Source: a virus
DNA: 54,009 nt
Virus record (IMG/VR): IMGVR_UViG_3300047470_000294
Coordinates: 1-54,009 of that record
Direction: 5' to 3' (one strand)
Part shown: positions 2,283-30,495 of the stretch, piece after piece
Layout: each line of letters starts with the position of its first letter
Numbering within the stretch: the stretch's first letter is position 1
Translations under genes and position numbers: made by a program
The notes under the pieces: generated by a model
What the model saw: the letters and a program-made list of their open reading frames with translations, nothing else
What the model was told of the DNA's origin: nothing
The model's database searches: none

Positions 2283-2378
2283 GCGGCCCCTGATCGCCGT
2301 GGCGGCGGAATTCGTTCCCCCGCGGCCCGCCGCCACGGCTTGCACGACCGACCGCCCCAACCCGAGAGAGGACGCCCC

Positions 2379-2573
2379 ATGTCCATGTTCAAGCGCGACG
2401 ACGAGACCGGCGAGGAGATCGCCCACCACGTCACCACCCCGTCCGGCACGACCTTCGTCACCGGCCAGCACGCCCACCTCTACCAGGACAACCCGGGCTA
2501 CGCCGTCGACGAGGTCCGCGGCCACTCCCGCGAGGACGGCGGTGGCTTCGTCATCGACCGCTACCTCGACTGA
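2379..2573 (+). CDS. Small hypothetical protein
   Basis: A 64-residue soluble protein beginning MSMFKRDDE. The start at 2379 is chosen because it follows a GAGAGAGGA leader (2364-2372), the first of a series of near-identical leaders in this cluster. The C-terminus (GGGFVIDRYLD) and the HAHLYQ region are distinctive, but I recognise no family. It is the first gene of the repeated-leader cassette array. Confidence 0.6.
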   Translation: MSMFKRDDETGEEIAHHVTTPSGTTFVTGQHAHLYQDNPGYAVDEVRGHSREDGGGFVIDRYLD

Positions 2574-2667
2574 CCTCCTGGCCCTGCCGGGGACCGCATC
2601 GCCCCCACGGTGGGGTGCCCAGCACGACCGGTACCACCACCCGATTGCGACCGCGAGAGGAGTCCCG

Positions 2668-2841
2668 ATGGCAGTCCGCCCGTGTCCGCCCGGCGAGTGC
2701 CGTCAGTGCTGGCGGCACGCCCACGACCCGAGCATCCACCGCAGCCAGGACCAGGGCCAGGACTGCGCCCAGTGCGTCGACCACATGAACAACGGCCACG
2801 GCAACCAGCTCGTGCCGAAGAAGGAATCCAGCTGGTGGTGA
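2668..2841 (+). CDS. Small Cys/His-rich protein, probable zinc binder
   Basis: A 57-residue protein with cysteines at about 6, 11, 14, 33 and 36 (CRQC and CAQC pairs) plus several histidines between and after them, a pattern that suggests one bound zinc ion. It starts behind the leader GCGAGAGGAGTCCCG. No named family recognised; the fold and role are inference. Confidence 0.6.
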   Translation: MAVRPCPPGECRQCWRHAHDPSIHRSQDQGQDCAQCVDHMNNGHGNQLVPKKESSWW

Positions 2842-2876
2842 CCGCCACCAGTCGACAAACCCCGAGAGGAGCCCTG

Positions 2877-3065
2877 ATGGGCCTGTTCAGCCGCACCCCC
2901 AAGCAGACCCCCGAGGAGCAATACCAGGCCGATCGAGACACCGCCTGGCAGGAGACCAACGCCCACAACCTGGCCGGCCGCGCACGGTTCGCCGGCATGA
3001 GCGACCGACAGGCCAACCGGCACTACCCGCTCACCGAACAGACCGACCGCATCGCCGGAACCTGA
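2877..3065 (+). CDS. Small hypothetical protein
   Basis: A 62-residue hydrophilic, mostly helical protein starting MGLFSRTPKQTPEEQY. ATG at 2877 follows the repeated leader CCGAGAGGAGCCCTG. The N-terminus (MGLFS) resembles that of the next gene (MGWLS), so the two may be distant relatives. No function recognised. Confidence 0.6.
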   Translation: MGLFSRTPKQTPEEQYQADRDTAWQETNAHNLAGRARFAGMSDRQANRHYPLTEQTDRIAGT

Positions 3066-3090
3066 CCGACCCACCCCGAGAGGAGCCCTC

Positions 3091-3240
3091 ATGGGCTGGC
3101 TCAGCAACAAGATCACCGGCACCCCCGAGCAGCAGGAACACAACGCCCGCTTCAACAACCCCGACACCGACCCCGACAGCGCCGAATACCTGGAATCCCA
3201 CGACCGGGTCATCGCCGCCGAGAAGAACAAGAAGGGCTGA
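3091..3240 (+). CDS. Small acidic hypothetical protein
   Basis: 49 codons, MGWLSNKITGTPEQQEH at the N-terminus and a lysine-rich end. The leader CCGAGAGGAGCCCTC directly precedes ATG and is nearly identical to the leader of the previous gene. No family recognised; leader, spacing and codon bias are the evidence. Confidence 0.6.
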   Translation: MGWLSNKITGTPEQQEHNARFNNPDTDPDSAEYLESHDRVIAAEKNKKG

Positions 3241-3244
3241 CGCC

Positions 3245-3358
3245 ATGCCCACCAACCCCGAGACCGGCAGCGACATCGAGATCGAGCCGGACGGCGACTT
3301 CACCGTCACCTTCCCGATGCGCATGCCGCCCCCGCGCCGCGACACCGACGAGCGCTGA
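3245..3358 (+). CDS. Very small hypothetical protein
   Basis: 37 codons starting 4 bases after the previous stop. The product is acidic in the first half (SDIEIEPDGDF) and Pro/Arg-rich at the end. No independent leader, so it would rely on coupling with the preceding gene. Plausible but weakly supported. Confidence 0.4.
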   Translation: MPTNPETGSDIEIEPDGDFTVTFPMRMPPPRRDTDER

Positions 3359-28503: not shown

Positions 28504-30495
28504 GTGGCCGTTGAGACGCAGGCGCACCAGGACATCATCGACGCCTACGGCCGGTCTCAGCAGCGGGCTGTCATCCAGACGACGGTGACGTTGCAGCGGC
28601 TGTGGAAGGAACTCGCGGCCACGGACCTTTCACGGTCGTGGCTGGGCGGTCTGGGCGCGGCGATGGTGCGCGCCGTGTCGGCCGGCCAGTTGGTGGCGGC
28701 GTCGACGGGCCAGAAGTACATCGAGGCGATGGTCCGCGGGGATGGGCTGGGCAACAACTACATGGAGCAGGCGTCGCATGTGGACACCCGTTCGTTCTCG
28801 GGTGCCGCGTCGGATGGACGGGCGTTGGATTCGCTGCTGTATCTGCCGGTGATCCGCACGAAGACGCTGATCGGCAACGGGCTGACATTGCAGGAGTCGA
28901 TGCTCGGCGGCCGGGCCCAGCTCCTGCAGATGGCCGCTTCGGAGGTCGCGGACGCGGGCCGGGGCGCGGCCAGCGTGTCGATGATCGCGAACCGGTCGGT
29001 GACGGGGTATGTGCGCACTGTCCGGTCTGGCGCGTGTGCACGATGCGCGATCCTCGCTGGCCGCTGGTACCGGTGGAACGCTGACTTTCAACGTCACAAG
29101 CGCTGCTTCCCGGCCGGAGTAGTGGTGTCGGGTCCGCAGACGCTAGCGGCCACGCGGCGGTTCTATGACGGGGAACTCGTCATCCTCACGACGGCGAGTG
29201 GTCAGGAGCTCCCCGCAACCGGCAATCACCCGATACTGACGCGACGCGGCTGGGTCGCTGCCAACCTGATTCAGGAAGGCGACGAGGTAGTCCGCAGCCT
29301 CCGGCCGGAGGGCGCTGCGCCCCTCGTAGTCCCAGACCATCAGCAGATGCCATCCCGCATCGAGGATGTATGGGGTGCGCACAGCGTGGCGGGTGTGCTT
29401 CGTGGAGTGCCAACCACCGCCGAGGATTTCCACGGCGACGGAGGCCACGGCGAAGTCGACGTTGTAGGGCCCAATCGCCTTCTGTGGGGTAGCGCCGAGG
29501 CTCCGTTCCTGGAGCCACTGGGCGAACTGGCGCTCGCCGTTGGATCGGTTGGCGTGCCAGGGGTTCTGCTCTCGGCGCTGGGCCGCGAGCTTGAGGGTGT
29601 CGCCAGAGGGGGAGCGTCCACGGCTGGCATCGTGGGCGGCGGCGGTGATTCGAGCCTTCTCCTCGGCGCTCATCTTGGACATGCGGAGCCTCTGTGCTTC
29701 CGAATGGCTTCGGATGTGCGCTCCGGCGCTCTTGAGGTGGCGCCGCACTACAGCTCGCATGACGCCGTAGCGGATGGAGATGGACTGCTCGGTCTCGCCA
29801 CCCTCGTAGGCGGCGACGACCTCCTCGATGGGCAGAGATATGGCACTACCCCTCGGTGGGATGCCGTTGGCGTTCAGGGCTCGGTACAGAACGCTGCGAC
29901 TGATACCGCAGTCGGCCTCGATCTGCTTGGCCGACTCGCCGGACAGGTAGAGCTGGACCGCGTTGTCGAGGTCCGCAGGGCTAGTTGGAGCGGCCACGTC
30001 TTTGACCTCAATTCGACAGAAGGCTGGTTCAATGCGAACGGCCTAATTGTATCTAACTGTCAGTGCTACGGGGTGCCAGCTACGGAGGCTCGCCCGGGCC
30101 GCCACACGAACCCAATGTCGTTCTTCCACGGCCTGTCGCGCGCGGAGCAGGATCGCCGGTTCACGATCGGCGGCGCGGCGGCGATCCGGAACGGCGCGGA
30201 CATCTACTCGGTGGTCAACGCGGGCCGTTCGACGATCACGCTGGACGCCTACGGCAAAAAGGTCGTCGCCACGCTCGAAGGCACGACGAAGCGTGGGGCG
30301 TTCTACCAGCAGATGCTGCGCGAGGCCGAGCAGCGCACCGGGCAGCGGTTCGCAAGGAACGGCTACGACCTGGAACGCGGCCTGCCCCGCTTTCACCTGC
30401 GGACGCCACGGCTGACGCCGGGCGAGATCCTGCGCCTTTCGGACGACCGCGACGAGCTGATCAGGCTTCTGAAGCGCTTCGGCTACCTCGGCTAG
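28504..30495 (+). CDS. Mu F-like minor head protein containing an intein
   Basis: 663 codons. Residues 1-200 and 519-663 form a head morphogenesis protein of the Mu F/SPP1 gp7 type, which would be 345 residues after splicing, with CARCAILAGRWYRW before the break. Residues 201-518 are an intein. The junction falls inside the family's H-x-x-C-x-C motif: HKR ends the N-extein and CQC begins the C-extein. The protein is made with the portal and stays in the capsid. GTG start two bases after the portal stop, without a strong ribosome binding site. See the intein and antisense nuclease entries for the inserted DNA. Confidence 0.88.
   Translation: MAVETQAHQDIIDAYGRSQQRAVIQTTVTLQRLWKELAATDLSRSWLGGLGAAMVRAVSAGQLVAASTGQKYIEAMVRGDGLGNNYMEQASHVDTRSFSGAASDGRALDSLLYLPVIRTKTLIGNGLTLQESMLGGRAQLLQMAASEVADAGRGAASVSMIANRSVTGYVRTVRSGACARCAILAGRWYRWNADFQRHKRCFPAGVVVSGPQTLAATRRFYDGELVILTTASGQELPATGNHPILTRRGWVAANLIQEGDEVVRSLRPEGAAPLVVPDHQQMPSRIEDVWGAHSVAGVLRGVPTTAEDFHGDGGHGEVDVVGPNRLLWGSAEAPFLEPLGELALAVGSVGVPGVLLSALGRELEGVARGGASTAGIVGGGGDSSLLLGAHLGHAEPLCFRMASDVRSGALEVAPHYSSHDAVADGDGLLGLATLVGGDDLLDGQRYGTTPRWDAVGVQGSVQNAATDTAVGLDLLGRLAGQVELDRVVEVRRASWSGHVFDLNSTEGWFNANGLIVSNCQCYGVPATEARPGRHTNPMSFFHGLSRAEQDRRFTIGGAAAIRNGADIYSVVNAGRSTITLDAYGKKVVATLEGTTKRGAFYQQMLREAEQRTGQRFARNGYDLERGLPRFHLRTPRLTPGEILRLSDDRDELIRLLKRFGYLG
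29104..30057 (+). other. Intein coding segment (Hint domain, residues 201-518)
   Basis: The N-terminal splicing block starts at C201 (CFPAGVVVSGP) and includes the block B pattern PATGNHPILTRRGW with H242. The C-terminal blocks are GHVFDLNSTEGWFNANG and LIVSN, ending at N518 before C519. The usual penultimate His is Ser here, a known variation. About 230 residues between the blocks are Gly/Ala/Val/Leu-rich with no endonuclease motif in the sense frame; they are the complement of the antisense nuclease gene. Codons 201-213 and 499-518 lie outside the antisense gene; the rest of both Hint halves overlaps it. Confidence 0.88.
29143..29997 (-). CDS. Antisense homing endonuclease nested in the intein (HTH plus EDxHD/Vsr-like)
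   Basis: 284 residues from GTG at 29997, preceded on the minus strand by GAGGTCAAAGAC. Two helix-turn-helix segments (about 10-45, and 57-90 with SIRYGVMRAVVRRHLK), a basic linker (about 105-130) and a nuclease domain of the DUF559/Vsr or EDxHD homing type: NGERQFAQWL (E155), GPYNVDFAV (D181), VAVEILGGGWH (E190, H197), then DAGWHLLMVWDYE. Codons are GC-biased in this frame. Every codon is the exact complement of a sense intein codon. Such nucleases cut intein-free alleles and spread the insert. It has no shared frame with the splicing domain, so it would be expressed on its own. Confidence 0.85.
   Translation of the reverse strand: MAAPTSPADLDNAVQLYLSGESAKQIEADCGISRSVLYRALNANGIPPRGSAISLPIEEVVAAYEGGETEQSISIRYGVMRAVVRRHLKSAGAHIRSHSEAQRLRMSKMSAEEKARITAAAHDASRGRSPSGDTLKLAAQRREQNPWHANRSNGERQFAQWLQERSLGATPQKAIGPYNVDFAVASVAVEILGGGWHSTKHTRHAVRTPYILDAGWHLLMVWDYEGRSALRPEAADYLVAFLNQVGSDPAASRQYRVIAGCGELLTTRRREDDEFPVIEPPRGR

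Follow-up and report, generated by a model that had tools for sequence, protein, structure and literature searches.

An antisense, codon-over-codon gene for a predicted homing endonuclease inside the continuous intein of a phage MuF-like head gene

In the window (the whole stretch of 54,009 nt that was analysed, an IMG/VR virus record), a MuF-like head morphogenesis gene (phrog_1522, E 3e-69) occupies positions 28504-30495 of the plus strand as a continuous precursor ORF of 663 codons. It is composed of an N-extein (28504-29103), an intein of 318 aa (29104-30057) and a C-extein (30058-30492), all on the plus strand, and its sense frame is unbroken through the intein. The intein starts with Cys1, ends with Ser-Asn, with Ser instead of His as the penultimate residue, and is followed by a +1 Cys. 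The junctions read ...RHKR/CFPAGVV... and ...GLIVSN/CQCYG, and the intein is inserted at the first Cys in the HxxCxC motif of MuF (RHKR/CQC). Intein-free relatives match just the two flanks of the gene, as is typical of an in-frame intein insertion. Pfam Intein_splicing matches the intein with E 2e-6, which is weaker than the curated cut-off, and the A4 profile matches solved inteins. In AlphaFold2 models, which were built with family alignments for both the sense and the antisense products, residues 1-70 and 250-318 of the intein form a confident Hint fold, the top matches of which are inteins (best E 3e-3, probability up to 1.0). Residues C1, H42, L302 and N318 of the splicing blocks are invariant among 44 inteins. 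Judged by these features, the intein is probably splicing-competent. At five other loci (L034, L048, L060, L061 and L082) the first residue of the intein is seemingly not Cys (for example HPRGK/AELPGN...SHN/CIAVP), which suggests Ala1-type splicing among these inteins.

The part of the intein between the two Hint segments contains a sense "filler" with no predicted fold (residues 125-247; 29476-29844, plus strand), in which pLDDT is nearly all below 50. The possibility that it is a domain was rejected, as Pfam gives almost nothing for this product besides Intein_splicing, and no confident fold was obtained.

On the minus strand, the intein carries a gene of 284 codons (29143-29997), with a GTG start at 29997 and a stop at 29145-29143, which encodes HTH repeats and an EDxHD/Vsr-like nuclease (HEN). 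Its product matches HTH_7 (E 1e-6) and, weakly, MTES_1575/DUF559; the profile of the nuclease family matches I-Bth0305I (PDB 3r3p, E 2e-4), and the nuclease domain matches the fold of that enzyme with a probability of 1.0 and a TM score of 0.62 by target. Unlike the filler, the antisense protein is predicted to fold over its full length (mean pLDDT 91.7). MTES_1575 was matched in 51/53 cases, and the acidic residues of this DUF559-type domain are conserved: Asp181 (codon 29455-29457 on the minus strand, within the invariant YN-V-D) and Glu190 are invariant, and Glu155 and His197 are conserved in at least 90%. The minus-strand product can therefore be classified by its sequence as an EDxHD/Vsr-like (DUF559-type) endonuclease with predicted cleavage activity. 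A first-pass annotation, made from the letters of the window alone, had proposed a nuclease with these two kinds of domain antisense within the head-protein intein, and both its coordinates and its domain assignment proved right. The same annotation had placed the nuclease in the slot usually taken by intein endonucleases. This holds for the middle of the intein, but the gene covers residues 14-298 of 318, and so it reaches into the N-terminal splicing domain, including block B, as well; its Shine-Dalgarno sequence and start codon fall inside block F. Block B (TGNHPILT; 29218-29241, plus strand) is the complement of the C-terminal hairpin of the nuclease (QYRVIA). At every intein locus tested the endonuclease was antisense, and none had the same-frame endonuclease of canonical homing inteins.

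Relatives of the minus-strand protein were detected by tblastn in 129 phage records, with hosts including Gordonia, Salmonella, Klebsiella, Pseudomonas, Haemophilus, Vibrio and others; the genes annotated beneath the listed matches were head/structural or hypothetical ones. In the first four relatives examined the nuclease was antisense to the head gene in the identical register. A search with the N-terminal region of the intein gave 118 records representing nearly the same set of phages, which bears out the co-occurrence on opposite strands that had been suggested as a check, and two odd records from this search, Rctr197k and ES2, also have the antisense nuclease. A search of viral contigs seeded with a single protein returned no matches, and scanning them with nuclease profiles, blind to the sense frame, gave 80 loci and then 160 more. 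In the first set of 91 loci, which includes the window and ten phage records, the antisense codon-on-codon frame was stop-free across the nuclease in all 91, and every other alternative frame was closed by 2-39 stops each. The antisense frame was open even in loci of 40-49% GC, and the others were closed even at 40%. The same register was found in 122 of the 123 non-redundant loci of a further viral set, some contigs of which overlap the first one, and in 9/9 loci from bacterial genome contigs (Actinomycetota, Chloroflexota and a Peregrinibacteria bin). These comparisons of sequences confirm that the nested antisense nuclease represents a family of loci rather than a singleton, spread over diverse phages and prophages that number well over a hundred. 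No complete nuclease gene is annotated in the records examined; annotation pipelines overlook it.

The sole exception, L182, has a free-standing relative of the nuclease gene (2320-3310). It lies beside, and convergent to, a MuF gene on the other strand that is intact and lacks an intein, and the frame antisense to it contains four stops in 280 codons. It serves as a natural control: when the nuclease lies outside an intein, the constraint to keep the opposite frame open is gone. This copy may represent the ancestor of the nested form or have escaped from it. Two loci, L062 and L099, have one stop in the nuclease frame and an open sense frame; they could contain a decaying nuclease, so that individual copies may have lost their HEN function, although the stop in L099, from the Peregrinibacteria bin, is possibly recoded.

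The two frames share codon boundaries, with position 2 of HEN codons opposite position 2 of sense codons, so that the sense frame remains open if the nuclease avoids just TTA, CTA and TCA. Among 74 dereplicated loci these codons were not observed even once, as compared with about 334 expected from flanking codon usage. In the exteins and Hint C, variability is highest at sense position 3. In the filler it is highest at sense position 1, which is the wobble position of the nuclease (HEN position 3), and the overlap of Hint N with HEN generally shows fewer changes at each position, with both frames constrained. This switch of the wobble strand holds in seven groups of loci. The pattern of substitutions indicates that selection acts on both frames, with the minus-strand frame selected through the filler. 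Of the two outcomes that would have spoken against the original proposal, neither was found: homologues of the nuclease are abundant and selection is not limited to the sense frame, and the filler is no recognised domain. The description of the sense frame as an open filler was correct for residues 125-247 and too broad elsewhere, as block B and a motif FHGD are dual-coded. As part of the best explanation of the locus, in which we have high confidence, the roughly 120-aa middle of the intein would be a by-product of the antisense gene.

The sense FHGD (29428-29439, plus strand) is the complement of nuclease VAVE, which includes the predicted catalytic Glu190. Across loci the nuclease motif, [VI]AVE, is written GTC/ATC GCC GTG GAA, with GCC as the Ala codon in 67/71 loci and GTG as the third codon in 60/60 cases of Val. 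Its complement is FHGD in 53/71 loci, and FHGD is conserved in at least 90% of the 44 inteins. Since D is kept whether the nuclease has Val (GTC) or Ile (ATC), the sense FHGD is itself selected; on this ground, and because the second Val is invariably GTG, its reading as a mere shadow of the nuclease was rejected.

The expression signals of the nuclease gene are written across splicing blocks. In block F (GHVFDL; 29992-30009, plus strand), the nuclease start codon lies opposite the His codon, and the Shine-Dalgarno sequence GAGG (30006-30009, minus strand), 8 nt before GTG, lies opposite the Leu codon, CTC, each as the complement. Block F is GHVYNLQ or similar across loci (GHVFDLN in the window), and its complement is YTGGAGRTTRTANACATG. 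The Leu codon is CTC in 51/59 loci versus 15 expected (P 8e-25) and the His codon is CAT in 45/59 versus 21 expected (P 7e-12); the expectations come from each phage's own codon usage, and these P values, which assume independence, are too small, as the loci are related, although at their 30-50% protein identity synonymous sites should be near saturation. Thus, the suggestion that the gene has its own Shine-Dalgarno sequence gains support from the codon bias of block F across loci. A -10-like box, TACAAT (30046-30051, minus strand), lies 48 nt upstream of the nuclease start as the complement of block G (ATT GTA), and has p 0.003 against a synonymous null. Such boxes reach p<0.05 against synonymous recoding in 79% of loci, as compared with 3% of the control random extein segments; they are often of the extended form TGnTATAAT, and their distance to the downstream start is mostly 45 or 48 nt, and 26 nt in some loci. 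No complete sigma-70 (-35/-10) promoter turned up when the window was scanned for the consensus. Minus-strand transcription is predicted to start from this box of the element's own.

Footprints of homing come from Guernseyvirinae relatives and not from the lineage of the window itself. The intein element is polymorphic there, being present in some phages and absent from others: the LP31 head gene matches 364 records, just 58 of them over 80% of its length, and most other listed matches consist of two flanking pieces. A precise empty site is seen in MA12, which has PPAHPN-CRST where LP31 has PPAHPN/intein/CRST (the alignment was split at the motif, as plain MAFFT put the gap wrongly). The inteins of Snoke, an E. 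coli phage, and LP31, a Salmonella phage, are 95.3% identical, as compared with 70% and 80% for their exteins. LP31 and the intein-free MA12 are 98-100% identical from 120 nt outward, and only 65% identical over the last 60 nt before the intein, a stretch in which LP31 resembles Snoke (88%); in VSe103 the tract is about 120 nt. By their sequence, the divergent flanks in LP31 and VSe103 are co-conversion tracts, as expected of homing. Empty and occupied alleles, horizontal transfer and flanking co-conversion, the marks of a homing element, are all found in these relatives. Further sites are occupied as well: Escherichia phage KMB36 (L094, 1634-3604) has a second MuF insertion site, TST/CRARDG, and in Rctr197k (L095, 2165-3517) a dCMP-deaminase-like gene contains the same type of intein and antisense nuclease (PCVA/C...HN/CAKRL). 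The "head morphogenesis" annotation of the latter gene probably follows the intein.

Taken together, we consider it highly likely that the element is a mobile intein in which the gene for the homing endonuclease runs antisense to the intein frame, codon over codon, and that the intein is continuous and probably splicing-competent. The plus strand would be read with the late head operon to yield the head-protein precursor, from which the Hint fold (residues 1-70 and 250-318) would excise itself with the filler looped out. The minus strand would yield the HTH and EDxHD nuclease from its own -10-like box, Shine-Dalgarno sequence and start codon, at a time and level separate from those of the head gene. 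Cleavage by the nuclease would take place close to the HxxCxC codons of a MuF allele that lacks the intein, and repair of the break from the interrupted copy would copy in the whole element. As the nuclease gene overlaps block B and starts in block F, the intein does not survive its deletion, and this should guard the nuclease gene against being lost.

Several other readings have to be weighed against this one. That only the sense frame is functional, with the antisense ORF as its shadow, due to chance or driven by GC content, might be argued from the many long antisense ORFs in the window, which high GC favours, and from the symmetry of stop avoidance in the codon-on-codon register. However, its product matches HTH and nuclease domain families and folds confidently where the sense filler does not, the filler wobble is on the antisense frame, the identical frame is open at 40-49% GC, and the Shine-Dalgarno, start and -10 positions have codon biases of their own. 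The low-GC loci, codon counts and wobble switch rule this reading out, and its probability is negligible. It is also very improbable that the nuclease is real and the intein dead or non-splicing, an insertion that the phage tolerates because it can spare the head protein or has it in fractured form. The unconserved filler would fit with that, but Cys1, the block B His, block F, the C-terminal Asn and the +1 Cys are conserved, Hint C is strongly conserved with sense wobble, there are zero sense-frame stops in any intein locus tested, and MuF is a head morphogenesis gene. A split intein or fractured gene was rejected, as the sense ORF is continuous and the intein does not lie in two separate ORFs.

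The nuclease might be real without serving in homing, if it excluded competing phages or controlled the head protein by antisense and the unit were spread by ordinary recombination. Homing endonucleases of T4-type phages can exclude relatives, and antisense transcription would affect the head gene. We regard this as unlikely given the sharp island of 95% identity, the short co-conversion flank, the empty sites in close relatives, and the presence of the unit in a second gene and at a second MuF site; such roles and homing are, however, not mutually exclusive. Less improbable, though still doubtful, is that antisense transcripts reading through from a distant promoter serve for translation of the nuclease and that the -10-like box is incidental. 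In favour of this are the lack of a complete sigma-70 promoter in the consensus scan and the box of the window, which is TACAAT, not TATAAT. Against it, the box keeps its distance of 45/48 or 26 nt in most loci, often in the extended form, exceeds the synonymous-recoding null far more often than controls do, and a portable element requires portable expression.

In-frame intein nucleases are well known, and their loss usually leaves a mini-intein. Canonical homing inteins, with in-frame LAGLIDADG or HNH nucleases between blocks B and F, share with our element the Hint splicing blocks, insertion at a conserved residue and homing into empty alleles. In contrast to them, our element encodes its nuclease antisense, in a gene that begins within block F and extends over block B, and the enzyme is outside the spliced polypeptide. 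As its deletion removes half of the splicing domain, the usual decay to a mini-intein is blocked, which bears on the persistence of homing genes. EDxHD (Vsr-like) nucleases of the same superfamily as this one and I-Bth0305I are also associated with phage inteins in "fractured genes", in which, as far as they are described where PMC12350094 cites Dassa et al. 2009, the two halves of a split intein flank a free-standing nuclease gene; in our element an unbroken intein and the nuclease gene occupy the same DNA. A group I intron in Didymium squamulosum rDNA (PMC9548176) likewise carries a homing gene on the strand opposite to a self-splicing element, but that element is RNA, the gene lies in a peripheral loop, and there is no second protein frame on the sense strand. 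In phage methylases, "hidden" HNH insertions that lie out of frame (ShiLan domain; PMC11855218) likewise keep overlapping frames open and have been inferred to home actively; these use "the third frame" and lack a detectable splicing domain, whereas the nuclease here is antisense and within an intein. Gosselin et al. survey actinobacteriophage inteins and are cited in PMC11855218 for overlapping frames; their 2025 preprint, on inteins with "non-canonical architecture", may already report some of the antisense-nuclease architecture, a possibility to which we give slightly less than even weight. In searches of open-access papers, we found no antisense nuclease inside an intein.

Among bacteria and phages, few natural examples of full antisense dual coding appear to be as clear as this element: one DNA stretch is predicted to encode two functional proteins, both of known families and both with purifying selection that can be measured, and quantitative tests are possible on more than 100 diverged copies. 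The timing of the nuclease could differ from late head-gene expression. With somewhat less confidence than in the architecture itself, we think it likely that these are widespread mobile genes in which splicing and homing co-evolved on opposite strands. The nuclease box, ribosome site and start would complement splicing blocks, the active site would complement an intein motif, expression would be uncoupled from the host gene, and neither protein could be deleted without harming the other.

Three minor observations concern individual loci. A terminator-like hairpin lies upstream of the nuclease, within the C-extein of the window (30289-30266, minus strand; 1 found, 0.6 expected); it could shield the nuclease gene from antisense read-through, or be due to chance. 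A small hypothetical ORF annotated within the intein of vB_StyS-sam (L106, 1769-2170), on the nuclease strand, may be a fragment of the nuclease gene. The intein of KMB36 is a different one (47% nt identity), and the usual HPNCRST site in this phage reads HFGCRST, perhaps a resistant target.
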